Shown here: in pieces, positions 3,429-45,792 of the stretch
How positions within the stretch are numbered: the first letter of the stretch is position 1
Layout: each line of letters begins with the position of its first letter
Virus record (IMG/VR): IMGVR_UViG_3300043464_001711
Coordinates: 29,998-93,997 of that record
DNA length: 64,000 nucleotides
Direction: 5' to 3' (one strand)
Source: a virus
Program-made: the position numbers and the translations under genes
The notes under the pieces: model-generated
What the model was told of the DNA's origin: nothing
Databases searched by the model: none
The model's input: only the letters and a program-made list of their open reading frames with translations

Positions 3429-4979
3429 TTAATACTCATATCTCATTTTTTTGAAATATTCATCCCCTGAAATAGTCACAGTATCTTGTATATCATTTTT
3501 AGTTAATTTATTATTTTTTAACATATAAGTACCTTCATCATCAAAAACAGTACTATATCTTTCACCTTGTCTCTGAATGTATTTTATATGGTTTTTTAAT
3601 TTTTTTGGTATTCTATACAAACTCGCAATCGCGTCTTTAGCGTTTGTATATTTAGGTTCAACACCTAAAAAAAACATTCTATCCGTTGATGGACAATAAC
3701 ATCTAACAAAAGATATGTAAGTCGCATTTACAATGTCTCGTTCAAGAACTCCCATAAATAAAGTGTAAACACCTACATTGTTACTATTTGTTGTTCCTAT
3801 CATAAATTTATCTTCTTTTTTATCCACATAGGTGTCAACTTCCTTTAAAACTTTTGTGAAAAAATCATACAAATATGTATCACCATGTAAATTTCTCATT
3901 ATTGATATTAATAAAGATTTATCTTCTTCATTTTTAATATCCATGAATTCTTCAAATGTTAATGTTTTTTCTTTAATCTTTTTAATTTTTTTAAGTAATT
4001 CTAAATTCACATGTCTATTTTCTATGTAGTCACAAATAAATTTTGTTTCTTCAAATGAGTACCCCCATTCTACCGCAGGACCATGCATATTATGTAAATT
4101 ATTATTTGAATCTAGATGTATTTTTTTAGGATATTTAGAAACAATACAGAAAAGTTCTGAAACTATTGTTGAATAGATATTAGAATCAGTGTATAATTCA
4201 TCCCATAAATCTATTTTTTGATCTATTCCTGTTTTAACATTTAATTCATCTTTAATAAATTTATAAATAGAAAGTCTAGAATTAGATTCTAAATTTGAGG
4301 TATACAAATATTGAAGTTGGTCACTATATTTTTCAGATTTATTTTTTAAATCGTAAATTACTTGGTTTTCTATTTTACGTAATATATTAGAGGTTATATT
4401 ATTTTCTAGACCATTTAATAAACTACCATATAATTTTGTTGTTAAACTTTTTAATAATTTCCTATTGTAAACAGCCATGTCATTTTCAAAATGACTATTT
4501 AATTTAGAAAAAAAGAAAGAACTTAATTTATTATATAACATTTCATTAATTAGTTCAGGATAAATAACACCATCTAATTTTTCATGCATTTTAAATTTTA
4601 ACTGTGAGATTATTTTAGACTTTAAAGATATATCATAATCTGAAGTTAAACCATCAACATATTCTATTTCTTCATGACCCCACTCATATTGTTCCATATT
4701 GTTTATCATACAATAATTAAAATATAGAATGGGTAAAAAATATTTTTTATTTTTAATTATAAAATTGTACAATAATTGTGATTCATAAGGGTTTTCACAA
4801 ACTAATACTATAGGTTTTTTAAAACCAGCGGATTCATAAGTCCAATTAATTAATTTTTCAGCATTTTCTTTACTGAAATTTTTATATCTACTACCGTCTA
4901 ATGAATTTCTAACGTATTTATTGACGTAAGATTTGAATTTTGATTGGTTTTCCGATGTTAATTTGATTAAATTTTTCAT
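3429..4979 (-). CDS. Unrecognised 516-residue protein with a DUF6745-like motif
   Basis: A large soluble protein. The segment LDSNNNLHNMHGPAVEWGY around residues 285-305 resembles the G-x-LHN-x-x-GPA-hydrophobic pattern of the DUF6745 family found in phages and some bacteria; the function is unknown. The N-terminus, MKNLIKLTSENQSKFKSY, resembles the ITESQ-type N-terminal peptides of the putative internal proteins elsewhere in the window. The upstream region has a good Bacteroidota-type promoter (5009-5038), so it may be expressed early by host polymerase. It stands alone between two transcription units, with terminators at 5075-5104 and 3101-3130. Confidence 0.65.
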   Translation of the reverse strand: MKNLIKLTSENQSKFKSYVNKYVRNSLDGSRYKNFSKENAEKLINWTYESAGFKKPIVLVCENPYESQLLYNFIIKNKKYFLPILYFNYCMINNMEQYEWGHEEIEYVDGLTSDYDISLKSKIISQLKFKMHEKLDGVIYPELINEMLYNKLSSFFFSKLNSHFENDMAVYNRKLLKSLTTKLYGSLLNGLENNITSNILRKIENQVIYDLKNKSEKYSDQLQYLYTSNLESNSRLSIYKFIKDELNVKTGIDQKIDLWDELYTDSNIYSTIVSELFCIVSKYPKKIHLDSNNNLHNMHGPAVEWGYSFEETKFICDYIENRHVNLELLKKIKKIKEKTLTFEEFMDIKNEEDKSLLISIMRNLHGDTYLYDFFTKVLKEVDTYVDKKEDKFMIGTTNSNNVGVYTLFMGVLERDIVNATYISFVRCYCPSTDRMFFLGVEPKYTNAKDAIASLYRIPKKLKNHIKYIQRQGERYSTVFDDEGTYMLKNNKLTKNDIQDTVTISGDEYFKKMRYEY

Positions 4980-5008
4980 TTTAATAAGTTTAATATTTTT
5001 AACTACAA

Positions 5009-5038
5009 CAAATATAATTAAAAAATGTTATTAAACAA
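5009..5038 (-). promoter_or_regulatory. Bacteroidota-type promoter for the 516-residue gene
   Basis: On the minus strand TTG (5038-5036) is followed after 19 nt by TATATTTG (5016-5009), matching the Bacteroidota consensus TTTG-N19-TAnnTTTG except for the first T. It lies 30 nt upstream of the ATG at 4979. Confidence 0.6.
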
Positions 5039-5074
5039 CATAACAACATAACAATATAAAAAAATATAATAAAT

Positions 5075-5104
5075 AAAAAACCCGACATTAAGTCGGGTTT
5101 GATA
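5075..5104 (-). terminator. Rho-independent terminator after the 17-residue gene
   Basis: CCCGAC (5081-5086), loop ATTAA, GTCGGG (5092-5097), with flanking A- and T-runs. Terminates the leftward transcript from 7532 to 5105. Confidence 0.85.
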
Positions 5105-5158
5105 TTACTTTTTTGGTGTTCCTTTGCTACCTTTGCAGCCACATCCTTTAGTTCTCAT
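5105..5158 (-). CDS. Possible 17-residue basic Cys-rich peptide
   Basis: A complete mini-frame reads MRTKGCGCKGSKGTPKK and stops three bases before the terminator at 5075-5104. It follows the 190-residue gene by 24 nt and has an A-rich leader (TAAAACTAAA) like other genes here. The composition (CGC with many Lys and Gly) is not what random AT-rich DNA would give, and the stretch between gene end and terminator is otherwise unexplained. Function unknown; a metal- or nucleic-acid-binding peptide is one guess. Confidence 0.4.
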   Translation of the reverse strand: MRTKGCGCKGSKGTPKK

Positions 5159-5182
5159 TTTAGTTTTATTTAATTGTTGTTA

Positions 5183-5755: not shown

Positions 5756-5757
5756 AA

Positions 5758-6123
5758 TTAAAATTGTGTTATTTTATAAACTCTTTTCATACTTTTATCA
5801 CCAGTAGGGTTAAAAAGTGGTCTAGGTTGGTCAAAAGTTCCACCTAGTATCTGAAAACCTTCTATTCTATCAGCTCTAAAAGTTTTCCAACCAGGTTGTA
5901 TTGTTTTAGTATCACCCCCAACTTGATATACCCTTATTATATCATTATCAGCTAAAGATAAACCATAACAATAAATCTCAACCCACCTTTGTCCTTTACC
6001 CCCTGGGTCTTCTTCGTCATCATAACGTAAACTAACAAGTCTACGTCTATTCATTGCATTCTCTATTTCAGACTTATTTGCAGCCTCTAATATAATACCT
6101 TCTAATAGAGAGTAAAGTTTCAT
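5758..6123 (-). CDS. WYL-like domain protein, about 121 residues
   Basis: I place the start at the ATG at 6123 rather than at the upstream ATG at 6234, because the longer frame would overlap the preceding gene by over 100 nt while 6123 lies just after that gene's stop. Residues 20-110 follow the WYL-domain pattern: RRRLVSLRYDDEE, a WVEIYCYGLS strand, WKTFRADRIEGFQIL near the end. WYL domains bind nucleic acid or small ligands in regulators; the role in a phage is unknown. The N-terminus MKLYSLLEGIILEA resembles the I/L-x-E-rich N-terminal peptides of several other proteins here. Confidence 0.55.
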   Translation of the reverse strand: MKLYSLLEGIILEAANKSEIENAMNRRRLVSLRYDDEEDPGGKGQRWVEIYCYGLSLADNDIIRVYQVGGDTKTIQPGWKTFRADRIEGFQILGGTFDQPRPLFNPTGDKSMKRVYKITQF

Positions 6124-6124
6124 T

Positions 6125-6499
6125 TTACCAATATTGTTCTCCAAAAGTAAAGTTGTAATAATTACTTCCTGCGGTTCCTGGTTTGTATTTGTTACCAGAT
6201 GAATAAAGTAGTGCATTCTTTCTTTGTTCATCAATAAGGGTACCTACACCTCCACCCGGTGTAATTTCACCTCTACCATAGTCATCACCTGTATGCTGTG
6301 CATTAGGGTGTTGTGCATCATATTTTTGTCCATTAAGATTTTTATAAACATTAAAAGTAGTGTTTTGTTGTCTAGTAATTTCACCCTGAACTTTTAATGA
6401 TGGTAATTGGTTTGTGACCCCACCACCCTCTGGGTTTAGTTCTTCTACTGAATCATTATCGGTTAGAACTGGTGCGATTGATTGTGCTGGTCCTGGCAT
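6125..6499 (-). CDS. Unrecognised 124-residue Gly/Asn-rich protein
   Basis: Low-complexity, polar and probably disordered (for example NPEGGGVTNQLPS and GEITPGGGVGTL), ending in aromatic residues (YYNFTFGEQYW). No known domain recognised. The start overlaps the end of the previous gene by 37 nt. An aromatic C-terminal tail after a flexible body would suit a virion decoration or linker protein, but that is a guess. Confidence 0.5.
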   Translation of the reverse strand: MPGPAQSIAPVLTDNDSVEELNPEGGGVTNQLPSLKVQGEITRQQNTTFNVYKNLNGQKYDAQHPNAQHTGDDYGRGEITPGGGVGTLIDEQRKNALLYSSGNKYKPGTAGSNYYNFTFGEQYW

Positions 6500-7532: not shown

Positions 7533-7574
7533 GAATTACTTTTCTTATAAATATCAGGTAATTCATGAATATTT
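7523..7574. repeat. Perfect 17-bp inverted repeat enclosing a late-promoter motif and a start codon
   Basis: Arms at 7523-7539 and 7558-7574 are exact reverse complements; the loop 7540-7557 holds TATAAATAT (7546-7554), which is ATATTTATA on the minus strand. The ATG of the gene at 6966-7532 is within the left arm. In a transcript continuing from the DNA polymerase gene the two arms would pair. Confidence 0.85.
7546..7554 (-). promoter_or_regulatory. Candidate late promoter motif ATATTTATA
   Basis: Exact match on the minus strand, 13 nt before the ATG at 7532, the same spacing as at the starts at 16298 and 18330. Confidence 0.55.
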
Positions 7575-10565: not shown

Positions 10566-11576
10566 TTAGAATTCTTTCGGTAATTTAAACATTTTAGATT
10601 CTTCTTCTCTTCTTTTCTTTAACCCAGGATATTCATCAAATAGATTACTTGAAATATTTTTAATTTCTTCCTTAGCCTTTTCAAGTTCACCCCTTTTAAC
10701 ATATTGTATGAAATCACTCATTCGTAAATTATTAACACCATAATTATAGGCTATTGAAGCCATAGCATTATACATACCTTGTGTTATTCTAGGTTTTATA
10801 TCTTCTAGTTCCCAGTCATCTAATATTTTATTAACACCTTTTGAGGCCTTTAACATATCATCATATAATAATTTTTCAGCTTGAGCACTTGTTATTGTAG
10901 TATGTTCTTTTTCGGGGTTATCTTTATCAAAAAGTATTATATCTTCATAATTAGGTACAAATGAATAATCACCACCAGTACTACCTTTTTTTGAGTTTGA
11001 GAAAACAGCGTGACCATAACCTGTTGTATATGCTCCATCACCTATGTCATAAAAATATAAAACAGGTTTGCCTTTTATACCTTCTTTCTTTTTTAAATGA
11101 GTAAAAAGTTCTTCACTTGGTTTTCTTATTTTTTCAACAACATCTTTTTTTATTTTTTCTGTTTTTTCTATTGGTGTTGTTTTTTCTATTTCAGAAGAAA
11201 AATTATTGTATAAATAATTTATTTCAGATAATGAAAGTATACCGATAAAAGAATAAAAAATATATTTTACAACTCTTTTTTTAAAATTAGAGGGTAAATC
11301 TTTTATTTCTTCCAATAAAGTTTTTATGTATTTTATAACATCATCTTTTGTTTTAACCCATCTCCTAGATTTTTTTAAATCTTCTTTTACTTTTTGAGTT
11401 AAATCCCAATGATAAGTAGGACTTGGTTCATCCTTAGTCCATTCACTTTCATCTTCATTTTCGTTGATTAATAAAAGATTATTAACAACTTTTTTTAAAT
11501 AATATTTTGTTTCTAAAATATTATCATAGTGAATAGATTTATTAATCTCTTCTTTTATTATTAGTTTGATATCCAT
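10566..11576 (-). CDS. GH24 (T4-type) lysozyme with N-terminal peptide and transmembrane segment
   Basis: 336 residues, about twice the size of T4 lysozyme. The C-terminal domain (about 153-336) has the catalytic Glu165 in KKKEG, the beta-hairpin aspartates around 177-180, and TTGYGH (184-189), the GH24 signature. It cleaves the glycan of peptidoglycan. The N-terminal 150 residues hold a short IKEE-containing peptide (MDIKLIIKEEIN), charged helices and one hydrophobic segment (about 102-122). The enzyme may be membrane-tethered (SAR-endolysin-like) or a virion enzyme rather than a simple cytoplasmic endolysin. The start overlaps the last base of the DHH gene stop (TAATG). Confidence 0.88.
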   Translation of the reverse strand: MDIKLIIKEEINKSIHYDNILETKYYLKKVVNNLLLINENEDESEWTKDEPSPTYHWDLTQKVKEDLKKSRRWVKTKDDVIKYIKTLLEEIKDLPSNFKKRVVKYIFYSFIGILSLSEINYLYNNFSSEIEKTTPIEKTEKIKKDVVEKIRKPSEELFTHLKKKEGIKGKPVLYFYDIGDGAYTTGYGHAVFSNSKKGSTGGDYSFVPNYEDIILFDKDNPEKEHTTITSAQAEKLLYDDMLKASKGVNKILDDWELEDIKPRITQGMYNAMASIAYNYGVNNLRMSDFIQYVKRGELEKAKEEIKNISSNLFDEYPGLKKRREEESKMFKLPKEF

Positions 11577-13438
11577 TACTTACTAGAATCTATTTTAGAC
11601 TTTAGTTGGTTAATAAACTCCTCAGAGAATTTCTTTAAGAAAGAAACACCATCTTTCCCGAAATACATCAAACCTGATATGTTAGTGATACATTTATGAC
11701 CACCAGAATTTGATTTAATCATATCCCACCCAGTAATAGTTATTGTTTTAAGAGCCTTTATTTCTCTTTGGTTTAATTCTGAATATGGTTTATCTAACAC
11801 TTTCTTTAAAGCTTTTACCCATCTATTAACAGTATAACCTTCAGGAGAACCTTTAGGTGTAGTAGTTAAGCCATTAATACCGCCAAAAAAGTTTTTACCA
11901 TTTATATCTGTTTTAGATAAAAAATTTAAAAAGTTATTTTTTAATTCAAAAAATTTATTTTTTCTTAATGTATGAACTTCTTCACTATTTTTTTCTTTAC
12001 CGTATAACAGTATCTCATTAAAATTAATGGTATACAAAATTAATTTTGTTAAAAAATTTAAATCATCATATGTTTTTTTTGTTATAACTGATTTAATTTT
12101 ATTGATAGCTAAATCATAATCACCTTTTTCATAATAGTCTGAAATTACTTTATATTTTTTACTAAGTTCTTCATCTGTCGTTGTAGTAGTAAGATCTAAA
12201 TATTTTTTATTAAATAATTTAGAAATAGAGTTTTTTGTAAAATTAATTTGATCGTCTAAAGCTCTTGAAGCCCGATTAAAATTATTATCGTCTTCATAGT
12301 CTAACATATCATTAAATGCTATATCTGAATCAGTACCATAAATAGAAAGTAAGGCGTTATAATCAAAACCAACAGAGTCTTCGGTAAAATCTTTATTTTT
12401 TTCAGCAAAATATTTTATCGTATCAAAAGTCAGTATTTTATTATACAATTCATTTTTAAACTTATCTAAAACAACATCTTTCATTTTACCTAAATCAACA
12501 CCTTTTAATTCTCTATTAGCCTTAAAAGGGTTACAGGAAGCTTGTAGTAAACCTAAAGGCCATGCTATAACAAAAAAGTTAGCATCAGGATATAATTTAA
12601 AAGGTACATATCTATCATAAGAACCTGGTTTAAACATTGAACCCCCACCATATTGAGATATTATCCCATATTCCTCATCATATTCTACATTACTATTTTC
12701 AGATTGTTTTTGAATATAATCTTCTAAATTTTGTTTCATTTCTACAGCTGAAGCATAACCCTCTTCTTTAGCTAATTTAACAATATTTAAATAAATGTTT
12801 AAAAGTGATGGGGTGGAATTTAAAACAAGTCTTTCTAAAAATTTTGGTTTATTTTTGTAGGCTAATAACAATTTATTTGTTACTAATGCCATAGCTATTT
12901 TATTATTAACAAACTCTTTTGTTTTATCTAATTTAAAAATGTAATTCATTACATCATCAGGTGTAATACCTAATCTTGCGTAGTCAGCACTATCTACTGT
13001 AGATATCATCATAATATCACTTGAAGGGAAAACATCTTGTGGTGATAATATTTGTGAAATAGTTTCTACATTTGAACGAGAATGTCTAAAAGATGTTGAT
13101 GTACCCTTATCAACCCCCACCTGTGAATCATGGTGGTCTGTATGTATAACAAACATTGGTTTACCATGAGCAAAGTCAACCAACACCGGCATTATATCAC
13201 CACTAGCATCAGGTTTTTTAATAGAAAATTCTTTATCTCCATATTGAATTATTTCCGCATCAACCGTTTTAATACCGTACTTTTCAAGGTAAGCTTTCAT
13301 TGCTATAGCGGTGGTAACACCATCTAAATCTTGGTGAAAATAAATTTTAGCCTTTTTATATCTTTTAGCTAATTTATTTATATTTTGTATACCACTTTCT
13401 GATATAATTTGTTTAATAGAGTTTTCAGTAATAATCAT
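11576..13438 (-). CDS. DHH-family phosphoesterase with an N-terminal internal-protein-like peptide
   Basis: 620 residues. FHQDLDG (34-40) is DHH motif I, VDFAHG (87-92) aligns with motif II, and HTDHHDSQ (99-106) contains the DHH triad at 101-103; together they bind two metals for hydrolysis of nucleic acid or nucleotide phosphodiesters (RecJ, NrnA and GdpP relatives). SNSGGHKCITN near the C-terminus resembles the DHHA1 GGH motif, which supports a substrate-binding lobe. The N-terminus MIITENSIKQIISESG resembles that of the HAD-like protein at 33291 and is unlike ordinary DHH enzymes. A late-promoter motif lies 14 nt upstream. The substrate could be cyclic dinucleotides, nanoRNA or ssDNA. Confidence 0.8.
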   Translation of the reverse strand: MIITENSIKQIISESGIQNINKLAKRYKKAKIYFHQDLDGVTTAIAMKAYLEKYGIKTVDAEIIQYGDKEFSIKKPDASGDIMPVLVDFAHGKPMFVIHTDHHDSQVGVDKGTSTSFRHSRSNVETISQILSPQDVFPSSDIMMISTVDSADYARLGITPDDVMNYIFKLDKTKEFVNNKIAMALVTNKLLLAYKNKPKFLERLVLNSTPSLLNIYLNIVKLAKEEGYASAVEMKQNLEDYIQKQSENSNVEYDEEYGIISQYGGGSMFKPGSYDRYVPFKLYPDANFFVIAWPLGLLQASCNPFKANRELKGVDLGKMKDVVLDKFKNELYNKILTFDTIKYFAEKNKDFTEDSVGFDYNALLSIYGTDSDIAFNDMLDYEDDNNFNRASRALDDQINFTKNSISKLFNKKYLDLTTTTTDEELSKKYKVISDYYEKGDYDLAINKIKSVITKKTYDDLNFLTKLILYTINFNEILLYGKEKNSEEVHTLRKNKFFELKNNFLNFLSKTDINGKNFFGGINGLTTTPKGSPEGYTVNRWVKALKKVLDKPYSELNQREIKALKTITITGWDMIKSNSGGHKCITNISGLMYFGKDGVSFLKKFSEEFINQLKSKIDSSK

Positions 13439-13792: not shown

Positions 13793-14401
13793 ATGAAACT
13801 AGAAAAAAATAAAAAATTAAATATCCTTGAAAAAATATCTCTTTGGTGGAGATTTGAGGGTAGGTATTACCATAGAGATTTTAAAAATGGTATTAAAAAC
13901 CTTTGGAAGTGGTTTCCTGTTATATGGAAAGACCGTGACTGGGATGACCATTATATTTTTGAAGTTTTAAAGTTTAAACTTAATAAACAGGCAGATTATA
14001 CTGGTGGTAGAGGGAATCACGTTAGTGCTAAAAGAGATGCTGAAATTATGCGTCTTGTTACTAAATTAATTAAATTACAACAAGATGAATTCTACGGTAT
14101 GGAATATATGGATTACCATAACACTGATTATGACTTTGTTCCAACTGACTATAAAATTGATGGTAAAAAGTGTTTTGAAATGAAATCAACCCTAGTTAGT
14201 GAAGATTTTGATTCTTACTTTAAAAAATACCCAAGACAATACAAAAGAGTTTTGTCTGGTGATATTAGTAGATACAAAAAACCTATAGAAAAATTGACAA
14301 AAGAATTAATTGCGATGGAAATTGCACACGAAAACCAAGACAGATGTAACAAACTTATCTTTAAACTTCTTGAGGGGAATATTCAAAAATGGTGGAATTA
14401 A
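13793..14401 (+). CDS. Unrecognised 202-residue soluble phage protein
   Basis: I use the ATG at 13793 because it follows a promoter ending at 13773; a longer frame opens at 13694 but would run into the divergent DUF3310 gene. Aromatic- and charge-rich, with NGIKNLWKWFPVIWKDRDWDD near the start, a central helical region and a C-terminal helix ending NIQKWWN. I recognise the NLWKW-FPVIWKDRDWDD type of sequence as a recurrent phage hypothetical but know no function. The Asp-rich RDWDDHY segment and conserved His/Asp residues could bind metal. The 3' end overlaps the convergent helicase gene by 4 nt. Confidence 0.65.
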   Translation: MKLEKNKKLNILEKISLWWRFEGRYYHRDFKNGIKNLWKWFPVIWKDRDWDDHYIFEVLKFKLNKQADYTGGRGNHVSAKRDAEIMRLVTKLIKLQQDEFYGMEYMDYHNTDYDFVPTDYKIDGKKCFEMKSTLVSEDFDSYFKKYPRQYKRVLSGDISRYKKPIEKLTKELIAMEIAHENQDRCNKLIFKLLEGNIQKWWN

Positions 14402-31589: not shown

Positions 31590-32147
31590 ATGTCAAAAAT
31601 TATTAATAAAAAACAATTGGACGTTCTTATTGAATCAACACTTAAAGAATGGAATTATAATATGGATTCTCATGGTATGAGTCAGGCAACGGGTGGCTTT
31701 TGTGAAGGAAAATGGGGTGATCCTGAATGTATGAAATATTGGTTAAATACTGGGCATATACATAAAAAAGAATATGATGACTGGGAAGAAAATTATTCAC
31801 AAAAAACGTCTGAAATAAAAGAAGGCAAAGGTACCATGTGTGAATGTGGTGGTATGGTGTATGAAGGAGAATGTAATGAGTGTGGAACTTCATATATGAA
31901 AAAAGGTAAAAAAGAAGAGAAAATAAAAAATCCTGGTAAATATATAAATGGGCCTAGAACAGAAGCCGGAATTGATGATGACGGTGATGGTGTCCCTAAT
32001 CGTGCAGATAAAAAACCTAAAGATGGTAATGTGACAGAAGCTTCAGTTAAAGATTTAGCTGAATCAGTTACAAAAACATTTGACGCATCATTCTTAACAG
32101 AGAATATGGATAACTTTAAAAAGTTAATTAATTACAGAAACAAATAA
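31590..32147 (+). CDS. Putative internal virion protein with Zn-ribbon-like and Ca-binding-like motifs
   Basis: 185 residues. The N-terminus MSKIINKKQLDVLIESTLKEW carries LIE and LKE, matching the (L/I)-x-E rule of T4-type prohead protease sites. The middle has CECGG-x8-CNECG, a possible four-Cys zinc knuckle, and DDDGDGVPNRADKKPKDG resembles thrombospondin type 3 calcium repeats. A second helical peptide (FDASFLTENMDNFKKLINY) closes the protein. No enzymatic domain. It stands between sheath and tube genes next to other proteins with similar N-termini; I infer an internal head (core) protein. Confidence 0.55.
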   Translation: MSKIINKKQLDVLIESTLKEWNYNMDSHGMSQATGGFCEGKWGDPECMKYWLNTGHIHKKEYDDWEENYSQKTSEIKEGKGTMCECGGMVYEGECNECGTSYMKKGKKEEKIKNPGKYINGPRTEAGIDDDGDGVPNRADKKPKDGNVTEASVKDLAESVTKTFDASFLTENMDNFKKLINYRNK

Positions 32148-32158: not shown

Positions 32159-32815
32159 ATGACAAAAGTAAGATATAAAATCAGAAAAGAACAACTAGAA
32201 AGAGTTGTTGAAAATTTTGTAATGGAATCAGCGATGATTGAAAAGAACGCTGCTAAAAAACACAAAATGTCGATGGGTGCTGAACAAGCTGACGATATGG
32301 GTGAAGGAATGGAAAAAGCTAAAGAAGTTAAAAAAGCTAAAATGAAACAAGCTCCTGAAGTTAAAAAACACATCCACGGAAAAGTTAACGAATCTAGAGT
32401 GTTAAGAGAAAATTCTGAAGAAGAGGCGATGGAATTTTTAAATGATTTAAAAGAAAATGACCCTGAAGCATACGCAAAATTAGAACAATCAGCAAAAAGT
32501 ATTCAAGCAAAATTAGAATCTGGAATGCAAGAAGAAGGATTACGTGATACTTTTAATAGGATAAAGGGTAAAATAGGTGGTGTACTATCTACTATTGGTA
32601 TTGGTGGTTTAGGTGTTTTTGGTAGTAGCCTTGAACAAGCGGCTAAAATGGGTAATTACGCAGTAGATTTGACAGACCCTTTATTTGTTACATCTGTGAT
32701 AGCTCTTTTAACTGGTGGTGGTCTTGTAGCCTCAAAAATACACCAAACAACAAAAGCACAAGAAAAAGAAAGAATGGAAAGAGCTAAGGCTAAATTAAAA
32801 AATAGAAATATATAA
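32159..32815 (+). CDS. Putative internal/membrane-interacting protein (218 residues)
   Basis: The basic N-terminus MTKVRYKIRKEQLERVVENF is followed by highly charged helices (residues 30-120), then two hydrophobic segments (about 141-158 IGGVLSTIGIGGLGVFG and about 178-195 VTSVIALLTGGGLVASKI) and a basic C-terminal helix. Starts 11 nt after the previous gene, in one transcript. A protein that is soluble in the capsid but can insert in a membrane would fit DNA-ejection or pore roles; inferred. Confidence 0.5.
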   Translation: MTKVRYKIRKEQLERVVENFVMESAMIEKNAAKKHKMSMGAEQADDMGEGMEKAKEVKKAKMKQAPEVKKHIHGKVNESRVLRENSEEEAMEFLNDLKENDPEAYAKLEQSAKSIQAKLESGMQEEGLRDTFNRIKGKIGGVLSTIGIGGLGVFGSSLEQAAKMGNYAVDLTDPLFVTSVIALLTGGGLVASKIHQTTKAQEKERMERAKAKLKNRNI

Positions 32816-33290: not shown

Positions 33291-34202
33291 ATGAAAAAAA
33301 TTATCATAACTGAATCACAAGCAAAGTTTTTAAAACAATATCTTAACGAAGAAAGAGATTTAAGATTATACTCATTTGATTGGGATGATAACATATTAAA
33401 CATGCCAACTGAAATTTATCTTAAAGATAATATGGGAAATGTTGTTGGGATGTCCACACATGAATTTGCTGAATACAGACATTTAATAGGTAAAGAACCT
33501 TTTAAATATAAAGGTAAAATGGTTGTGGGTTATGATGAAGACCCTTATAGAGATTTTAAAGATCCAAATGCATTTATTAGAGATGCTAAAATAGCTATAG
33601 AAAATGAAGATTTTGCGCCAAGTATCGGTAAATTTATTGAAGCTTTAATTTACGCTAATCCACTTTCAATTAATACGGCTAGGGGGCACGACCCAAAAGT
33701 TCTTAAAAAAGGTCTTAGATTTTTTATCGATAAAGTTCTTACAGAAGATGAAAAAGAAGAAATGGTTGAAAATATAAAAGACGCTTACCAATACGAAGGT
33801 AATTATCCACAAGACTTTTTAAATAAAATAAATAACCTTAATACCAATCAGTTAATAGATTTTTATTTAGATAGTAGGGTTAAATATTATCCTGTTTCTT
33901 CTGATAAATTTGGTGAGAAGTCTGGGTTACCAGTTACAGGTGGGGCAGCAAACCCTGAATATGCAAAACAAGTAGCTTTATCACATTTCTTACAAACTAA
34001 TTTTGAAGATGTTAAAGATTTAATTAAAGGTGGTAAATATAATAAAATATCTTTAGGTTTTTCGGATGATGACCTTAAAAATGTTAACGCAATGGTAAAT
34101 TTTATTGATAGAGAATTATCAAAAGTATACCCTGAAGTTCACTTTGTTGTTTATGATACATCTGAGGGTGGTAAGAAAAAAATTGTTATTGAAAAAGATT
34201 AA
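33291..34202 (+). CDS. HAD-like phosphatase with ITESQ N-terminal peptide
   Basis: 303 residues. After the peptide MKKIIITESQAKFLKQYLNEE, the HAD motif I is FDWDDN (Asp30 nucleophile, Asp32 acid/base), motif II SINTAR around 126-131 (Thr129), and motif IV GFSDDD (256-261) supplies acidic metal ligands. HAD enzymes remove phosphate from sugars, nucleotides or proteins; substrate not deducible. The N-terminal peptide ends in L-N-E-E, matching a possible prohead protease site, so it may be packaged and injected. The neighbours at 34304 and 34801 carry similar peptides. Confidence 0.75.
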   Translation: MKKIIITESQAKFLKQYLNEERDLRLYSFDWDDNILNMPTEIYLKDNMGNVVGMSTHEFAEYRHLIGKEPFKYKGKMVVGYDEDPYRDFKDPNAFIRDAKIAIENEDFAPSIGKFIEALIYANPLSINTARGHDPKVLKKGLRFFIDKVLTEDEKEEMVENIKDAYQYEGNYPQDFLNKINNLNTNQLIDFYLDSRVKYYPVSSDKFGEKSGLPVTGGAANPEYAKQVALSHFLQTNFEDVKDLIKGGKYNKISLGFSDDDLKNVNAMVNFIDRELSKVYPEVHFVVYDTSEGGKKKIVIEKD

Positions 34203-34203: not shown

Positions 34204-34323
34204 ATGAAAATAGTTGTACTTATTGTTTTAAGCTTTATTTTATTAGGGTGTAAAACTTCATCTGGTAATCATTGTGACGCTTACGGTAAATTAGAAAACA
34301 AAAATGAAAGAAAAAATTCGTAA
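34204..34323 (+). CDS. Small lipoprotein (39 residues)
   Basis: The ATG at 34204 lies 1 nt after the HAD gene stop. MKIVVLIVLSFILLGC is a compact signal peptide with a lipobox ending in Cys16, followed by a short polar tail (KTSSGNHCDAYGKLENKNE). The tail is too short for an enzyme. Small phage lipoproteins act as Rz1-type spanins or block superinfection at the membrane; either is possible. The end overlaps the next gene by 20 nt. Confidence 0.7.
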   Translation: MKIVVLIVLSFILLGCKTSSGNHCDAYGKLENKNERKNS

Positions 34324-34804
34324 AATATTAAAGGAAGAATCTGAAGAGTTTGATTGGACTAATCAAATAGACCCATTACAATCGTTTGAAGATTATTTTT
34401 ATGGTAAAAGTGGTTACAATACTAGAGATGTTCCAGGTATTTATATTAAGCGTGATAATGGGTGGTGGTCCAATTGGATTCATGAAGTTGAAATGGCTCA
34501 TGCCAGTTTTTTAGATGATGTTAATGAATTAAATGATATGGTACATGACTTGGTTAACCCAACAGACGGTTCAGAAAAATATAAAATGTTAGCTGACGAT
34601 GTTTATTCTTATCTAACCCCATCAAGAAATTTAGGTGGTAGGAGTTATTTATTGGATTTAGCTCTTGAAATTAAAATGGCTTATGACTATTTAGGCCCAT
34701 TTGCTGAAAAAAATAATCTAACTATTTTAGAGACATTAGATATTTTTAAACAGTGGTTGGGTAAAATGAAAAAAGAAGGTAAACCTTTACATGAAAAATT
34801 ATGA
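34304..34804 (+). CDS. Putative internal protein with ILKEE N-terminal peptide (166 residues)
   Basis: Starts MKEKIRKILKEESEEFDWTN. The next protein starts with nearly the same peptide (MKNLIKKILKEDFDW), although the bodies differ. A helical body with SYLLDLALEIKMAYDYLG and a C-terminal helix. No known domain. The shared N-terminus with an L-K-E site suggests common targeting. Overlaps the lipoprotein gene and the following ATG (4 nt), so expression is coupled. Confidence 0.55.
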   Translation: MKEKIRKILKEESEEFDWTNQIDPLQSFEDYFYGKSGYNTRDVPGIYIKRDNGWWSNWIHEVEMAHASFLDDVNELNDMVHDLVNPTDGSEKYKMLADDVYSYLTPSRNLGGRSYLLDLALEIKMAYDYLGPFAEKNNLTILETLDIFKQWLGKMKKEGKPLHEKL

Positions 34805-35349
34805 AAAATTTAATTAAAAAAATATTAAAAGAGGATTTTGATTGGATAACTGATATACCACCATTTATTGAGATTACTGAACCCGTATCACAAAAAAACC
34901 CAAGAGATGTTTTTAGATTACATTGGGCCAATGGTCATGGTGAAGATAGCGGTACTTGGTCCGATAGTTGGTACAACTTTACAAATGATTCTAATGGAAG
35001 TGAACAATTAATCAGATATGTTAAAATTTTACAAAATGGATTTAACTCTTCTGGTTATTTCAGCCTTGAAAAATTAATAGATTTATATTTAGATGGTGGT
35101 CATGATTATATTGTAACTAATTGGATGAGGGGTGAGTTATCTAAAATACCTACAAATGGTTTTGGTGAAGATACTATATATAATGAAAAAAGAGATTCCT
35201 TAGATGAAATGTTAAAAGATGACCTATATGATATGGGTATTTTATCTTACGATTCTTATAGTGGTGATTATGCAACAGTAGAAAGGTGGTGGATTACTTA
35301 TTTTGATGAGTATGGGGTTGAATTTGAAACAAAAATTAATAGAATATAA
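34801..35349 (+). CDS. Putative internal protein with ILKE N-terminal peptide (182 residues)
   Basis: MKNLIKKILKEDFDWITDIPP at the start; the body is rich in aromatic and acidic residues (WANGHGEDSGTWSDSWYNF, YATVERWWITYFDEYG). No known motif. The last gene of the 33291-35349 unit, followed by a terminator. Grouped with the internal-protein candidates by its N-terminus; function unknown. Confidence 0.55.
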   Translation: MKNLIKKILKEDFDWITDIPPFIEITEPVSQKNPRDVFRLHWANGHGEDSGTWSDSWYNFTNDSNGSEQLIRYVKILQNGFNSSGYFSLEKLIDLYLDGGHDYIVTNWMRGELSKIPTNGFGEDTIYNEKRDSLDEMLKDDLYDMGILSYDSYSGDYATVERWWITYFDEYGVEFETKINRI

Positions 35350-35479: not shown

Positions 35480-36367
35480 ATGGATGGTAAAACTTTTATA
35501 TATGGTTTATATAATATAAATGACGTAAAAAAAGAAATAAGATATATAGGTAAAGCTGATAACCCTGAATATCGTTTAAAAAGACACAAAAACAATACTT
35601 TATACAATAAAAAAATAAATAAGAAATTAACCCATAAAGAAAATTGGATAATTGATTGTGATTACAATATAGATTATATCATTATCAGTGAGTGTAGTAT
35701 CACTGATTGGGTTGAATTAGAAAAAAATCTAATAAAAAATTATCCAAATTTAACAAACACTGCTAATGGTGGTGAAGGTGGTTCAGGTATAAAATATAAA
35801 ATAACCTACGAAGAATGTAAAAAATGGGTAAAAGAAAATGTTAAAGTTAAATCTAAAACGGATTGGTCTAACAAATTAAAATTATTACCAGATTACATAC
35901 CAAAAAACCCTAACCAAAGGTATAAAAATGATGGTTGGGTTAGTTGGGGTGACTTTTTAGGTACCAATACAGTTAGTGATAACTATGTTAATTATTTAAA
36001 CTATGATGAAGCTAAAAAAACAATAAATTTATTGAATATTAAAAAAGTTATAGATTATAAAATTTTAGCTAAAGAAGGTAAAATACCACACAATATACCA
36101 AATAGACCTAATAGGTATTATGAAAATCGTGGTTGGTTGGGGTGGTCAGACTTTTTAGGGTGTGATATTATTGCTAATCAAAATAAGAAATTTTTTAATT
36201 TAGAAGAATTCAAAATAAATATTAAAAAATTAAACATTAAAAAAATGTCTGAATATAAAAAATATTGTTTAAGTGGTAGTAGGGATGGGAGAATGCCAAC
36301 TAACCCTCTTACAGTCTACCGTAGAGAAGATAAGAAAGTTAGTTGGCTAGATATTATTACCCCTTAA
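35480..36367 (+). CDS. GIY-YIG homing endonuclease with phage-integrase-type repeats
   Basis: 295 residues. The catalytic domain has GLY (9-11) and YIG (22-24) with the following Arg at about 32 and a Glu in WVELEKNLI. The C-terminal half holds three related DNA-binding repeats with the pattern I-P-x-x-P-x-x-x-Y-x-x-x-GW-x-x-W-x-D-F-L-G (about 137-161, 203-229 and a shorter one at the end). It should make a targeted DNA break in related phages to copy itself. It lies between a vestigial ClpP end (35363) and the intact ClpP gene, whose end it overlaps by 11 nt. Confidence 0.85.
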   Translation: MDGKTFIYGLYNINDVKKEIRYIGKADNPEYRLKRHKNNTLYNKKINKKLTHKENWIIDCDYNIDYIIISECSITDWVELEKNLIKNYPNLTNTANGGEGGSGIKYKITYEECKKWVKENVKVKSKTDWSNKLKLLPDYIPKNPNQRYKNDGWVSWGDFLGTNTVSDNYVNYLNYDEAKKTINLLNIKKVIDYKILAKEGKIPHNIPNRPNRYYENRGWLGWSDFLGCDIIANQNKKFFNLEEFKINIKKLNIKKMSEYKKYCLSGSRDGRMPTNPLTVYRREDKKVSWLDIITP

Positions 36368-37109
36368 TTATTTTTTGGTAATATTTATCAAACCCTGTTA
36401 AATATTTATCCATACCATTTTTAACTTTATTATCTGAATATAAAACTTCGTCAATTAATCCGAATTTTAATATTTCTTCAGCGTTAAACCATTTATCACG
36501 ATGTGCTGTAGAAATAACCTCATCAAAAGATTTACCACAATATTCAGCTAACATATTAAAAAGAACATAATTATATTTTTCACTTTCAAGATGATTGATT
36601 CTATTATCAGCCACATGCCCTCTAGTTCCAGAAGACACTTGATGTATCATTACTCTTGAAAAGGGAAGAGAACTTCTCATACCTTTTGTTCCGGCCCCTA
36701 ATAAAACTGAACCCATTGATGCCGCCATCCCTGTGTTAATTGTTTGAATTGGGTTGGGGATATAATTCATAACATCAATAATAGATAGACCACTAGAAAC
36801 ACTTCCGCCAGGTGTGTCTACATGCAAAGTAATAGTTTTCTTAGGGTCTTGTTGGGATAAGAAAAGAAGTTGTGCCTGTACAACAACAGCCATTCTATCA
36901 TTCACAGGTCCAGCACACCAAATAATACGATCCATCATCAATCTATCAAATACACTCATAATAGCAACATTTAGTTGTCTTTCTTCAATAATTGAAGGTG
37001 TGATTGATGATTCAATGTTTGGAACAATAGATTGGAAATTTTGGTATCCGTGTAGGGTATGTGAACCAATACCCATGTGCTTTACAGCGTACTTATCAAA
37101 TTCGGTCAT
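36357..37109 (-). CDS. clpP: ClpP-type serine protease with N-terminal extension
   Basis: I start at the ATG at 37109 (MTEFDKYAVKHMG); the longer frame to 37172 would overlap the next gene's leader. The catalytic triad is complete: Ser131 in GMAASMG, His156 in RVMIHQ, Asp205 in AHRDKW. The oligomerisation helix region and FGLIDEVL near the end are ClpP-like, and an extension of about 45 residues precedes the core. In phages such proteins may mature the capsid or replace or modify host ClpP. No ClpX/ClpA partner is visible. The very host-like core suggests acquisition from a bacterium. Confidence 0.88.
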   Translation of the reverse strand: MTEFDKYAVKHMGIGSHTLHGYQNFQSIVPNIESSITPSIIEERQLNVAIMSVFDRLMMDRIIWCAGPVNDRMAVVVQAQLLFLSQQDPKKTITLHVDTPGGSVSSGLSIIDVMNYIPNPIQTINTGMAASMGSVLLGAGTKGMRSSLPFSRVMIHQVSSGTRGHVADNRINHLESEKYNYVLFNMLAEYCGKSFDEVISTAHRDKWFNAEEILKFGLIDEVLYSDNKVKNGMDKYLTGFDKYYQKIIKG

Positions 37110-37172
37110 GTTTAAAATTTTTAATGTTTTTTTTCTTAAAACAAGAATATTTATAATAAAACAATTTGTCAA
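37110..37172. promoter_or_regulatory. Divergent promoter region of clpP and the 799-residue gene
   Basis: 63 bp. Plus strand: ATATTTATA at 37147-37155, 17 nt before the ATG at 37173. Minus strand: TTTG, 20 nt, TATTCTTG, a near match to the Bacteroidota promoter. This would give early clpP and late structural transcription from one gap. Confidence 0.45.
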
Positions 37173-39572
37173 ATGAAAAAAATAAATTACGACAACGCTT
37201 TAACTAGTTTATTTGAAGAAAAGGAATTAACTACTAATATACTATCTCTTGAAGGTGAGGATTTATATAAAGAAATAGCTTATGTTTTAACAGAACTTTC
37301 TCTTATTGATAAAGGTACTGGTAAAAAAATAATCTCAGAAAACGAAAGATTATTATTGGAAGCCAGTTTCATGGAAAAAATAAGAAATGCTTGGAATAAC
37401 CTTTGGGGTCAAGCAAATCAACAAGCACAACAAAACGCTAATCAAAATTTAGGTCCACAACAAGCACAGGCAGTACAACAAGCACAAAAGGATATTGCAG
37501 AAGTATCTAAAAATTGTGCTGAAAGAGCAGAAGGTCACTGGAGTATAAAATATGAACCTGGTGATCCTAGATATACAGAAGAAAATAAAAAGAAATATAT
37601 TGAGGGTCATATCAAACATTGTATTGAAGAGACCATGAATAGTTCTGGTGGTAAGTCTATTATAGGTAAGTTAAGTAATTTTTTAAATAACACAGTATCA
37701 GGTAGAGTTCTAACAGGAATGGTAGCTATTGGAGCTATGTTCTATGTTACTGGTTTATTGGGTACACATTCCACAACAGTTAAAAAGAATGTTGATGACG
37801 GTAATCTACATGTTGCTAAGGTAGTAAACAAACACACACAAAACGATTCTTTAAACCATTCTTCACATGTTAAAGTAAATAAAGATGGTAGTTTAACTAA
37901 AGTTGATATTGGTAAAGATGGTAAGACTGTTGGTGTTATAGAACGTGATTTTGCTAAAACTGATTTAAATGATAGTCAGGTACAACAGGCTGCACAAAAT
38001 ATTGTTAATTTAGTTAAGGATATTAATAAAGATCCTGATTTAGGTGGTAAACCTGTTAAATCTATAACTTTAAAATTCCATTCAAATTATTCAAATACTG
38101 ATGGTGGTGTTGATTCTGATGGTGATGGTATACCTGATAGTAACGATTGTCAAGGTGGACCATGTGCTGAAACACACAACCAAAAATCCATTGATGCTGT
38201 TTTAAAAATAGTTAAACAAGAATTAGCTAAAGACGGTATACCTACCAAAGTTAAAGTTAAATCTGAAATTGGTGGTTTGGCAAAAGATGTTGTAAAAGCT
38301 AAATCATCATCAGCTGATGCTGAACAAAACACAACAATAACTGTTGATGGGATAGACGCTCCAATAAAAAAACAAACAGATACAAAGATTCAACCTGGAC
38401 CATATGGGCCACTTGTTGATACGCCACCAGCACCAAAAGTACCAATTTGTGATATAAACATAAACGGTAAGACAATTAAAGTAGAAAGGGGTAACCGTAT
38501 AAGTATATATGCTAATGTAGATTACCTTGAAGAAGATGGTCAAAAATTTGATGGTATTTTAACACCTGTTGATAATGGTCCTTTATTACATTTAGAAATT
38601 TTAGGTGGTTTTACTGATGAAAAGAATGGGGTAACATATTTTGTTGTACAACCAGAAGATAAAACAACCGTACCTGAAGGATATGAACAAATACTAAAAG
38701 ATGGTATGTATATAGTTCCTTGTGGTAAAAAAATGAAAGGTGAGGATAAACGTGAAGATGATGATATAAATAGAAAAGATGAATACGAAGACGACATAGT
38801 AGTACCAGTACCAAAAAAAGAATTCCTAAAAGGTAATAGAAATATGCAATTGGCTTATTTAGCTAAAAATTTCTTACCAGGGGGAGAAAGTTTATGGAAT
38901 GGTTTAGGTATAAAAGAAGGGACAGTTTTACCTTCAGGGTTTTTTGACGCAGCTTTAAATCAAGGAAAATATGACCCACAAAACTATTTAAGCAAATATT
39001 ATGATTATTTAGTGAATAATAATGCTTTTACTAACAAAATTAATAAACAAGCATGGTTAGCTAGGGTACGTAGTAATAAAAATTTAGCTTTAATATCTTG
39101 GATTAGAAACACTAGAAAAAACATTGGTGGATTTTTCAAAAAATTAAACAATGAATATGGATTAGGTTTGGGTGAAAGAGCTAGAGCATTCACAGCAAAA
39201 CCTGGTGAAACAGGGAAAGCTATGGGTACGATAGGTGATTCAGTTCTTAAAAAAGATAATTTAATTATTGAAGCTTCAACCACTTTTGGTGATTCAATTA
39301 AAAAGGCTGGTTTTAGAGAAGACTTATTAATGAAAAATTTACCACAATTTATGGAAATGTTAACAACAATGTATTTCGGTATTAAAGGTAAGAAAATAGG
39401 TTATGATAAAAATGCTGTTATGAATTTATGTAAAGAATATGGTTGTAAAGTCGATACTGGTAAAAAATTCAAAAGAAGTGTATCTAAAGATTACGCTATA
39501 ATGGATAGTGTTGAACCTAAAGATGAAATTTTAAAAGAAGAAATAAATAGAATAAAAAATTTGATGAAATAA
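37173..39572 (+). CDS. Large putative internal virion protein with one membrane segment and OmpA-like/Ca motifs
   Basis: 799 residues. The N-terminal helical region (with LFEEKEL and LLLEASFMEKI) is followed by a Gln/Ala-rich linker (QANQQAQQNANQ), then one transmembrane-like helix (VLTGMVAIGAMFYVTGLLG, about 178-196). Residues about 300-370 resemble an OmpA-like fold (ITLKFHSNYS...KSIDAVLKIVKQELAKDGI) interrupted by DSDGDGIPDSNDC, a thrombospondin type 3-like Ca-binding loop. The C-terminus EILKEEINRIKNLMK is a tag-like helix with L-K-E. An ejected protein spanning periplasm and membrane would fit; the function is inferred. Confidence 0.55.
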   Translation: MKKINYDNALTSLFEEKELTTNILSLEGEDLYKEIAYVLTELSLIDKGTGKKIISENERLLLEASFMEKIRNAWNNLWGQANQQAQQNANQNLGPQQAQAVQQAQKDIAEVSKNCAERAEGHWSIKYEPGDPRYTEENKKKYIEGHIKHCIEETMNSSGGKSIIGKLSNFLNNTVSGRVLTGMVAIGAMFYVTGLLGTHSTTVKKNVDDGNLHVAKVVNKHTQNDSLNHSSHVKVNKDGSLTKVDIGKDGKTVGVIERDFAKTDLNDSQVQQAAQNIVNLVKDINKDPDLGGKPVKSITLKFHSNYSNTDGGVDSDGDGIPDSNDCQGGPCAETHNQKSIDAVLKIVKQELAKDGIPTKVKVKSEIGGLAKDVVKAKSSSADAEQNTTITVDGIDAPIKKQTDTKIQPGPYGPLVDTPPAPKVPICDININGKTIKVERGNRISIYANVDYLEEDGQKFDGILTPVDNGPLLHLEILGGFTDEKNGVTYFVVQPEDKTTVPEGYEQILKDGMYIVPCGKKMKGEDKREDDDINRKDEYEDDIVVPVPKKEFLKGNRNMQLAYLAKNFLPGGESLWNGLGIKEGTVLPSGFFDAALNQGKYDPQNYLSKYYDYLVNNNAFTNKINKQAWLARVRSNKNLALISWIRNTRKNIGGFFKKLNNEYGLGLGERARAFTAKPGETGKAMGTIGDSVLKKDNLIIEASTTFGDSIKKAGFREDLLMKNLPQFMEMLTTMYFGIKGKKIGYDKNAVMNLCKEYGCKVDTGKKFKRSVSKDYAIMDSVEPKDEILKEEINRIKNLMK

Positions 39573-41750: not shown

Positions 41751-41766
41751 CCCATAATTATTTTTT

Positions 41767-42834: not shown

Positions 42835-42853
42835 TTTTTTTATTTATATAATA

Positions 42854-42884
42854 CAAATATAGTTAAGGTTTTTAATATGGCAAA
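42854..42884 (-). promoter_or_regulatory. Bacteroidota-type promoter, exact consensus, for the peptidase gene
   Basis: Minus strand TTTG (42884-42881), 19-nt spacer, TATATTTG (42861-42854): an exact match to TTTG-N19-TAnnTTTG, 19 nt before the ATG at 42834. Confidence 0.75.
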
Positions 42885-43007
42885 GTTTTTTTTAACAAAA
42901 AATTTAGAATAATTCTATTTATATAATAAAAACAGAATCTTTACTTTGTCAAAAAAGGTTTTAAGATTATAATAAAATAATAGTAAACATAAAAAAAAGT
43001 TTTTACA

Positions 43008-43769: not shown

Positions 43770-43944
43770 AAGACATTTAATAGAAATTGTCTATTACATG
43801 GTTAAACATTTAAGATTTAGTTATACAGATGTTTTAAAAATGCCTGTTTGGGAGAGAGCTCTTTATATTGACCTTTGGCAAAAAGAAATGGAAGAACAAC
43901 AAAAACAATATAAAAAGGCTCAATCTAAAGGTAAGAGTAGATAA
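43732..43944 (+). CDS. Overlapping 70-codon frame, C-terminal part of a tail-assembly chaperone fusion
   Basis: The frame begins with a TTG and no ribosome signal; a first ATG at 43798 would give only 48 residues. The sequence EYRRHLIEIVYYMVKHLRFSYTDVLKMPVWER is helical and ends in a charged Gln/Lys tail. The F-S-Y-x-D-V-x-x-MP-x-x-ER pattern is common in the short C-terminal parts of tail-chaperone fusions. Conserved-looking sequence upstream of the only ATG suggests translation by frameshifting from the 43008 gene. Confidence 0.6.
   Translation: MDSTFFGLTLEYRRHLIEIVYYMVKHLRFSYTDVLKMPVWERALYIDLWQKEMEEQQKQYKKAQSKGKSR
43743..43749 (+). promoter_or_regulatory. Candidate ribosomal frameshift site (T7 run)
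   Basis: TTTTTTT read as TTT-TTT-TGG in the gp26-like frame. A shift of +1 (or -2) gives TTT-TTT-GGC and continues into the 70-residue frame, producing a fusion of about 311-312 residues. A -1 shift would stop at once. Confidence 0.55.
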
Positions 43945-43958
43945 AACAAAATTAAGGC

Positions 43959-43967
43959 ATATTTATC
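43959..43967 (+). promoter_or_regulatory. Candidate late promoter motif ATATTTATC
   Basis: One base from consensus, 19 nt before the ATG at 43987. Confidence 0.45.
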
Positions 43968-43986
43968 AATAAAAAAGAATCTAAAA

Positions 43987-45792
43987 ATGCCTAAAAATAT
44001 CAGAGAAATATTAAAAGAGTATGATCAAAAGTTAGAGGAATCTCTAACTTTTGGTGCTTCTATGAATGAAGATGCTTTAAATAATTTATTAAACCCACAG
44101 GCAAATCCATCAAAAACAAAAGCACCAGGTTTAGATCCCAAGGACGACCCTTCAGGAGCAAAAAGTGGTGGTAGAGCTTCTTTTTTATTACAAAACGTAA
44201 AAAATAATTTACGTTCAGTGGGTTTTACTCTTGATGATTTAGAAAAACAAAAAACTATCGCACAATTAATTCCAGCTCCTTTTGGTTTTAAATTTTCACT
44301 TTTATGGCCAAAAGAAAATGAGTGGGGTGAAAAAAAATATGTAACCCTAAAAATTGGGGACCAAGAGATAGAATGTGATAGAGTTGATACTAGAGCACAA
44401 GTAAGAAACCCTAATTTAAAAGGTAGATTGGTTTTATCAACAAAATTAGGTCCAGATATTATTTTTATTGACCCTGTTGAATTAACTAGAACTTTTGGTG
44501 GTGATGCGGGTAAGTTACCTCCAGGTAAAAAAGGTGAAAATTATAAAAGATTATTAGAAGAAGGTGTTACATATAAAGTACAGGTAGATTCAGATGTACT
44601 TGTTGGTGGTGAAAGTGATGATGAAAAAGAAGAAGAACCAATTAAAGAAGTACCAATACCTGAAGAAATAACTTCAGGAAAAAATAGGAATGAAATTTTT
44701 AGACTTCTACTAAGAGGTTTTGGTAAATACAATGGATTAGTTGTATTTGGTGACGGTTTTAATAATATAGATGATGCTAGGGAATACGCTAGACTACAAA
44801 GAGGTTTAAAATCAGGTAAAACTACAAAAGAAGAATTAGCTGATTTTAGGGAAAAAGCTGAACGTGATGCTTATAGTATGATGATAGCCAATTTAAGAAA
44901 ATCTTATCCAACTAACTTCTTTAAAGGTTTATCAAAAGCCTTCCCCGAATTTAACATACAGTATGCTAAACAATCAATGGATGAGGATTATAACCTTTCT
45001 GAGGATGTAGATAACGATGATAAATATAAAAGGTGGAATCTTGTCTTTCCTGGTAAAGTTATTGGTACTAAAACAATAGATAACCTAGATAAAAATATCA
45101 GGGAATTTATGATAGCCGTTAAAAAATGGTTTGCTGTACCTGTTGCTGGTATTGATGGTAAAAAAAGAAGTTACACTATTAATTACGATGAAGATAAAGT
45201 TAATCAATATTGGGAAACTTTTTATGGTAATAAAAAAAATGAATCAAAATTATCTTTATCTAACATTTTAAAAGAAATGTTAAATGAAGAGCAGATAATA
45301 AATAATAAGACACCTAAGTTTCCACAATATTTTCTCCTTAAGATTGAAAATGGTGGTTTACAAACCATAGATGAATCACAATCTGATGTTGAATCTAGGG
45401 TTCAAAAGGCTACTGGCCAAAAACAATCTGGATTTTTTGACGCCATTTTATTTAAAACTTCATACTCACTTGATAAAGATGGGGGTGATATTTCTGAATC
45501 TTCGGCTGATTTATTACTAGGATACGCTAATATTAAAAATGCTCCATCCGATGGAAAAGCTAAGATTGATATGGATTACGACTCAAATGGTGTGGTCGGA
45601 TCAAATAGTATTGTAGAAATAGTGGGTGATCCAGAAGGAGTTAATTCAAAATTAAAAAATCAAATCATTAGTAGAGGAAAAATGAGGATTAAAAAATCTA
45701 TAAAAAAACCGGGTTATTTAATGCTTTATTACCCATCATTAGAATTGGGTGGTCAGAAAAACTACAAATGGGATGAAATATCAAATACATAA
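43987..45792 (+). CDS. Putative virion protein with N-terminal and internal ILKE peptides (601 residues)
   Basis: Starts MPKNIREILKEYDQKLEESL and repeats a similar peptide at about residue 422 (LSLSNILKEMLNEEQI). This divides the protein into a disordered front, a central domain (LIPAPFGFKFSLLWPKENEWGEKKYVTLKIGD; LLLRGFGKYNGLVVFGDGFNNIDDA), and a C-terminal domain (FPQYFLLKIENGGLQTIDES). It reads as two modules each preceded by a targeting/cleavage peptide. No enzymatic signature. The position between tail chaperone and tape measure suggests tail-associated or internal role; uncertain. Confidence 0.55.
   Translation: MPKNIREILKEYDQKLEESLTFGASMNEDALNNLLNPQANPSKTKAPGLDPKDDPSGAKSGGRASFLLQNVKNNLRSVGFTLDDLEKQKTIAQLIPAPFGFKFSLLWPKENEWGEKKYVTLKIGDQEIECDRVDTRAQVRNPNLKGRLVLSTKLGPDIIFIDPVELTRTFGGDAGKLPPGKKGENYKRLLEEGVTYKVQVDSDVLVGGESDDEKEEEPIKEVPIPEEITSGKNRNEIFRLLLRGFGKYNGLVVFGDGFNNIDDAREYARLQRGLKSGKTTKEELADFREKAERDAYSMMIANLRKSYPTNFFKGLSKAFPEFNIQYAKQSMDEDYNLSEDVDNDDKYKRWNLVFPGKVIGTKTIDNLDKNIREFMIAVKKWFAVPVAGIDGKKRSYTINYDEDKVNQYWETFYGNKKNESKLSLSNILKEMLNEEQIINNKTPKFPQYFLLKIENGGLQTIDESQSDVESRVQKATGQKQSGFFDAILFKTSYSLDKDGGDISESSADLLLGYANIKNAPSDGKAKIDMDYDSNGVVGSNSIVEIVGDPEGVNSKLKNQIISRGKMRIKKSIKKPGYLMLYYPSLELGGQKNYKWDEISNT

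Follow-up and report, generated by a model that had tools for sequence, protein, structure and literature searches.

Numerous otherwise unrelated proteins of a T4-like phage begin with a short amphipathic leader that ends in the step [IL]xE, and comparison of their sequences makes it very probable that these leaders are capsid-targeting propeptides of T4-like head assembly, cut by the prohead protease. The leaders were studied in a 64,000-nucleotide stretch (the window) at the end of a virus record of 93,997 bases (IMG/VR IMGVR_UViG_3300043464_001711). Positions are those of the window unless prefixed L001, the label used for the rest of the contig. A first-pass annotation had proposed a family of such peptides on unrelated proteins; all of the N-termini that it quoted are present in the sequence, and the family extends well beyond the window.

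By its translated genes, the phage is a T4-like myovirus. The first 30 kb of the contig carry a gp22-like scaffold gene (L001:1951-3183) and a gp23-like major capsid gene (L001:3212-5020; PHROG 138, E=5e-63), and translations from the window include tail sheath-, tube-, tape measure- and baseplate-like proteins. Flavobacterium phage immuto and Microcystis phage Mel-JY01 are cultured relatives by capsid protein (~42% identity), and the nearest relative is L003, with 88% capsid identity. Many uncultured relatives were found by a capsid scan on contigs of up to 345 kb, and a scan with the DHH protein described below reached contigs of up to 380 kb.

Enrichment, exchange and classes of leaders

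Counted as [ILV][ILV][KRNSTQAD]E in residues 4-26, the step [ILV][ILV]xE occurs in 12 of the contig's 78 genes versus 4.1% of internal stretches (p=6e-4), and a looser form in 17 of 78 versus 8.0% (p=7e-4). Chance would give about 3 of the 12, leaving about 9 in excess. The same count gave 49/333 in the 380-kb genome G006 (p=1.5e-9) and 13/93 in immuto (p=2.5e-5), and near none in AT-rich control phages (P-SSM2 1/42, HTVC008M 0/44, CP220 1/44, phi14:2 2/48). The peptide is thus enriched over AT-rich gene starts, a comparison on which the first-pass annotation had let its proposal depend. When genes were grouped into families by their bodies, [IVL][IVL]xE stood near the N-terminus in 84 of 383 families versus about 26-34 in other stretches. 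Leaders were assigned to 103 families. The leader scan relied on simple calling of open reading frames (ORFs), with some start sites wrong. Moreover, hold-out profiles, trained on a set without this contig and its near relatives, picked out five genes of the contig at E<1e-3 (33291, 34304 and 34801 in the window; 8402 and 8812 in L001) and none of 521 control genes. Leader genes additional to those listed in the first-pass annotation start at window 32159 and at L001 1385, 8402 and 8812.

Two leader-bearing proteins were compared with many homologs:

13397..13438, minus strand: leader MIITENSIKQIISE of the DHH phosphoesterase-like protein (11576-13438), predicted cut IISE|SG
33291..33350, plus strand: leader MKKIIITESQAKFLKQYLNE of the HAD-like protein (33291-34202), predicted cut after LNE; matched by the hold-out profiles of classes A and D

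In the DHH family, the body starts SG[IL]RNI...YKKAKIYFHQDLDG, and the leaders in front of it are of different classes and lengths (MKKLIKE, MKIIITESQYKQLIKE, MIITENSIKQIISE and MNILLKKGLLLE among them). Among the distinct leaders, mostly of 7-20 residues, 34 of 35 end in [IL]xE directly at the body start, and the lone exception resembles a truncated start. Leaders have therefore been exchanged and yet end in the same step at one point, which indicates a fixed boundary. An AlphaFold model of the DHH protein gives residues 1-18 a predicted local distance difference test score (pLDDT) below 50, with the leader as a lower-confidence helix and a better-defined core after it. The protein has an invariant H99-T100-D101-H102-H103, and a Foldseek search with the model, itself of moderate confidence, returned PAP phosphatase and RecJ matches (E 2e-4 to 7e-4); its Pfam DHH match falls below the cut-off. 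The DHH motif and RecJ-like fold are supported. Cellular homologs, sought in genome contigs for comparison of the N-terminus, were not found.

The HAD-like family connects the leaders to those of T4. In 28 of 33 distinct homologs, [ILVM]xE precedes the core by no more than 20 residues (background 20%), and the AlphaFold model shows a helix of lower confidence at residues 8-19, followed by a core with pLDDT of ~90. Some homologs carry T4-type leaders, namely MKTYNHFLNE (L526), MIKKFNHFISE (L529) and MIKRFESFIEE (L534), to be compared with MKTYQEFIAE of T4 IPIII. In the T4 capsid-targeting sequence (CTS), residues 4 and 7 serve targeting and residues 8 and 10 processing (PMC9026906). L526 retains Y4, F7, the hydrophobic residue 8 and E10 of IPIII, and L529 and L534 have an aromatic spacing similar to that of the T4 CTS; T4 positions 4 and 7 are unmatched in the other leader classes. 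Two phage genomes, of 642 kb (LR756502, L558) and 735 kb (LR756501, L557), encode homologs that carry MDILRFDQFIRE|S and MKKLSNIKNFELFLNE|N. These two genomes are among the largest known for phages, and the leaders of their HAD-like cargo are T4-type. In the 40-kb portions of them that were read, leaders were enriched weakly or not at all, so the extension to such phages is made through the HAD-like protein alone. The HAD assignment itself is suggested by the family invariants DWDD, TAR and SDDD; neither Pfam nor PDB gave a sequence match, and Foldseek gave no significant one.

The leaders fall into at least six classes: A, MKKVIKLTESDLxRIVKRVIxE; B, MKxLIKKILKEE and MNIKKIIKEE; C, MRKFIISEEEKRRILNLHE...LNEQ; D, MKIIITESQxxxLxxxLKE; E, MRRQDKxxxxxxANxxLExxYLxE; and F, NEELxRMKYLFGYxRGVxISEQ. 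Class B is so short that profiles built from it alone gave no useful E-values, and the following FDW stretch had to be added. An FDWV.(D/E)I motif often lies a few residues after a class B leader in otherwise different proteins (window 34304-35349; G006 93203-95869 and 328534-333102). Class A was used for a DNA search of IMG/VR with the pattern KLTESDLxxIV, which is silent on the residues downstream and yielded 82 usable distinct proteins in 55 body clusters. The motif is N-terminal in 77 of the 82, and [ILVM]xE follows within 9 residues in 78 (background 11/82). The conserved peptide is encoded with freely varying synonymous codons, which indicates selection on the peptide and not on the DNA. 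Class A leaders with their own Met also stand between two domains (L081, L078, L049 and L074; NENMKRRIITLTEDDLTRIVKRVLNEE), and class A copies are found at the C-terminus of L065, L037 and L045. A third case of exchange is the RYMFFSNLEQ family, in which both class A and shorter class B-like leaders occur.

Head maturation genes and leader-bearing proteins

T4 gp21 cleaves after L/I-X-E (PMC9026906), and the steps in the T4 records are FIAE|A in IPII and IPIII, LLRE|S in gp24, LIAE|A in gp22 and FLTE|A in gp23. Comparison by eye places [LI][NTS]E|[ASTG] at the proven T4 gp23 cut position in the capsid proteins of the group (for example LINE|T, LLTE|A and LLNE|S), with SVLINE|TTDTAGG in the phage of the window; in the immuto capsid protein the predicted cut is QIVSE|A. 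The gp22-like proteins have an N-terminal [IL]xE site in 51 of 59 cases, and that of the contig contains 15 [IL]xE sites where 8.6 are expected (p=0.014).

Of 15 large relatives, 14 encode a gp21-type S77 protease (PF03420) next to the genes for scaffold and capsid. In L003 it lies upstream of the capsid gene, and the ELNHP and SSRG regions of T4 gp21 recur in the aligned homologs. Among 21 contigs chosen by the class A DNA motif only, 15 encode an S77 protease (14 of the 15 above 130 kb), versus 1 of 16 chosen by a random 14-mer, in a comparison that was not size-matched, the control contigs being few and smaller on average. The gp21-like protease that the first-pass annotation had suggested seeking outside the window is present in relatives and missing from this contig. 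No PF04586 (S78) match was found in the contig either. The window does encode a ClpP-like protein (36357-37172, minus strand) that strongly matches families of head maturation proteases in PHROG; we disfavor it as the processing protease because in relatives the S77 protease adjoins scaffold and capsid.

The window holds these further leaders and leader-like segments:

11460..11576, minus strand: propeptide of the lysozyme (10566-11576), MDIKLIIKE and then a second conserved site, LLLINE|N
34304..34336, plus strand: leader MKEKIRKILKE of a 166-residue protein (34304-34804), class B hold-out profile E=2.9e-5
34801..34833, plus strand: leader MKNLIKKILKE of a 182-residue protein (34801-35349), class B hold-out profile E=1.2e-6
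31590..31634, plus strand: leader MSKIINKKQLDVLIE of a 185-residue protein (31590-32147), whose G006 homolog starts MSKIVTKKQLDLVMEN
32159..32227, plus strand: leader-like MTKVRYKIRKEQLERVVENFVME, by form only, of a 218-residue protein (32159-32815) with hydrophobic glycine-rich stretches
6085..6123, minus strand: leader MKLYSLLEGIILE, the true start lying inside ORF 5758-6234; homologs MKLYSLLENIILEE (L088) and MKLYSLFKDLILE (L186)
43987..44019, plus strand: N-terminal leader MPKNIREILKE of a 601-residue protein (43987-45792); homolog L550 starts MPRSIKEILEDY
45250..45288, plus strand: internal copy LSLSNILKEMLNE of the same protein; L550 has LTLSNILMEMLKE
39525..39569, plus strand: C-terminal copy EILKEEINRIKNLMK of a 799-residue protein (37173-39572), resembling class F (NEEINRIKQIMG in G006)

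Homologs support most of the examples that the first-pass annotation had cited, namely the DHH protein (11576), the HAD-like protein (33291), the lysozyme (10566), the gene starting at 6123, the gene at 31590 and the 601-residue protein. The second copy that it had noted inside the last of these holds up, as both the N-terminal and the internal site are kept in L550. The N-terminus of the 799-residue protein is weak as a leader, but its C-terminal peptide does look like class F. One cited gene, 3429-4979 (MKNLIKLTSENQ), has no [IL]xE after the peptide and does not belong. The lysozyme has its PF00959 domain at residues 176-326, and its homologs retain the LINE site, some with class C leaders.

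Across the group, leaders stand on phage lysozyme, DHH/RecJ-like proteins, SprT-like metalloprotease, PAP2 phosphatase, GNAT acetyltransferase and P-loop kinases, and on peptidoglycan-binding and leucine-rich domains; the majority of the bodies have no known family. A sigma-factor match also arose among the leader-bearing proteins; it was not assigned to a particular one and may come from a wrongly included member. By profile or short class B pattern, leader genes number 41/333 in G006, where they are arranged in runs of consecutive genes, 20/264 in G008 and 7/381 in G001. The label "effector," applied in the first-pass annotation, thus holds only partly: the DHH and lysozyme folds have support, the HAD-like protein is assigned by motifs only, and most cargoes are without known function.

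Some neighboring features are recorded here for completeness. A 1693-residue baseplate-region protein (53509-58590) has a C-terminal Hint/intein-like domain (CFVAGTKIKL ... HPIW ... VYN) with no obvious downstream extein. L002:565-12853 is a long run of glycosyltransferase, nucleotide-sugar and methyltransferase-like genes, and L002:13696-15177 holds a dUTPase-like gene that Hint-like pieces seem to interrupt; an endonuclease-like ORF lies at 13991-14878.

Proposed mechanism and alternatives

By analogy with T4, the amphipathic leader would bind the gp22-like scaffold core during prohead assembly, and the fused protein would thereby be enclosed in the prohead. The gp21-type S77 serine protease would then cleave after [IL]xE, the leader being lost while the core is digested, and the mature protein would remain in the head with the DNA, from where it could be ejected into the next host. 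Scaffold binding, enclosure, cutting and injection are all carried over from T4. The first-pass annotation had already likened the peptides to T4 propeptides, and that likeness is strengthened by the enrichment, the exchange at a fixed boundary, the capsid site, the protease of relatives and the T4-type leaders on homologs. Delivery of many leader-bearing proteins into the host is, in our judgment, fairly likely.

Several points weigh against propeptide function. The S77 protease gene is absent from this 94-kb contig, which begins ~1.95 kb before the scaffold gene, a start that would explain the missing gene; G011 and G026, both above 150 kb, also gave no PF03420 match. Most leader classes are unlike the T4 CTS in the targeting half, so scaffold binding is argued by analogy. 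Upstream regions of leader genes in the contig, G006, G001 and G008 showed no enrichment of the T4 late-promoter motif TATAAATA. Virion proteomics for this phage group was not found in the literature, and our searches, whose coverage left out most subscription journals and preprints, returned no description of these leaders. Finally, [ILVMF]xE alone is present in 26-55% of N-termini in every phage tested; a short leader would not be proven by its own sequence alone, and the single short ones (the 601- and 799-residue proteins, 31590 and 32159) are weak individually. Separately, the timing of the leader genes is not accounted for by the late-promoter motif.

That background frequency is what favors chance, since AT-rich genes often start with K, I, L and E. 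Chance may still hold for single weak cases, but it is refuted for the family as a whole by the near absence of stricter motif forms from control phages and random AT-rich viral genes, and we regard it as highly improbable. We give equally little credence to selection on DNA or RNA at gene starts, such as translation initiation or a promoter cassette, as the source of similar N-termini. The peptides are indeed mostly located at gene starts, but the free synonymous variation and the in-frame copies inside proteins and at C-termini argue otherwise. An N-terminal tag with a purpose unrelated to the head, such as anchoring in a membrane, marking for degradation or delivery to a phage compartment, in which [IL]xE would be incidental, is improbable. 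Amphipathic helices of this kind can act as general tags, and no cut has been seen so far. However, all that leader classes of differing sequence have in common is the terminal [IL]xE at a fixed boundary, the capsid protein has this step at its cut site, leader-motif contigs encode the S77 protease, and HAD-like homologs carry the T4-type CTS.

The most probable of the alternatives accepts cutting by the prohead protease but holds that most tagged proteins are core or scaffold parts used during assembly, digested or kept in the head rather than injected as effectors. The abundance of [IL]xE in the gp22-like protein, the N-terminal site of its family and the small leader proteins that adjoin gp21 and gp22 fit this explanation. 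In contrast, the bodies include many enzymes and cell-wall proteins (DHH, lysozyme, SprT, PAP2, GNAT, P-loop kinases and peptidoglycan-binding domains), they differ from phage to phage, and many lie in runs far from the head genes. We consider such a role of most tagged proteins possible but unlikely.

Taking the leaders as propeptides, we lean toward a broader view of a large, mostly uncultured T4-like group, perhaps including the largest phage genomes. A modular code of exchangeable leaders, used also between fused domains and at C-termini, may load tens of enzymes per particle, so that the injected arsenal of thousands of phages could be read from DNA. Which proteins a phage brings into its host would then be predictable from sequence, and a likely time and place of action could be assigned to many genes without known function. 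The leaders would also be candidate tags for loading proteins into phage heads.

Comparison with known systems

The cargo-loading peptides of encapsulins are likewise short tags that load enzymes into a shell; unlike the leaders described here, they are mostly C-terminal and are not cut off. In phiKZ and SPN3US, too, a prohead protease trims inner head proteins, and the phage packages and ejects many proteins (PMC5694885). The propeptides there, however, are mostly long (often more than 100 residues) and cut after other motifs, and there is no short exchangeable leader set.

The closest counterpart is the T4 CTS of IPI, IPII, IPIII and Alt, where proteins that are otherwise unrelated likewise start with a short peptide that ends in L/I-x-E. 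The two systems share the S77 gp21 protease, the occurrence of this site in gp22 scaffold and gp23 capsid, and the T4-type leader found here on HAD-like homologs. They also share tags at both ends, as in Alt, which is cut at both ends in T4 (PMC9026906). The group differs from T4 in having at least six leader classes, most of them unlike T4's, in the internal, polyprotein-like copies, in being known mainly from metagenomes, and in the tens of profile-supported cargoes of some genomes (41 in the 380-kb G006, only 7 in G001). The T4 CTS, the classic example, serves only a few cargoes, whereas the same principle appears here on ~100 protein families.

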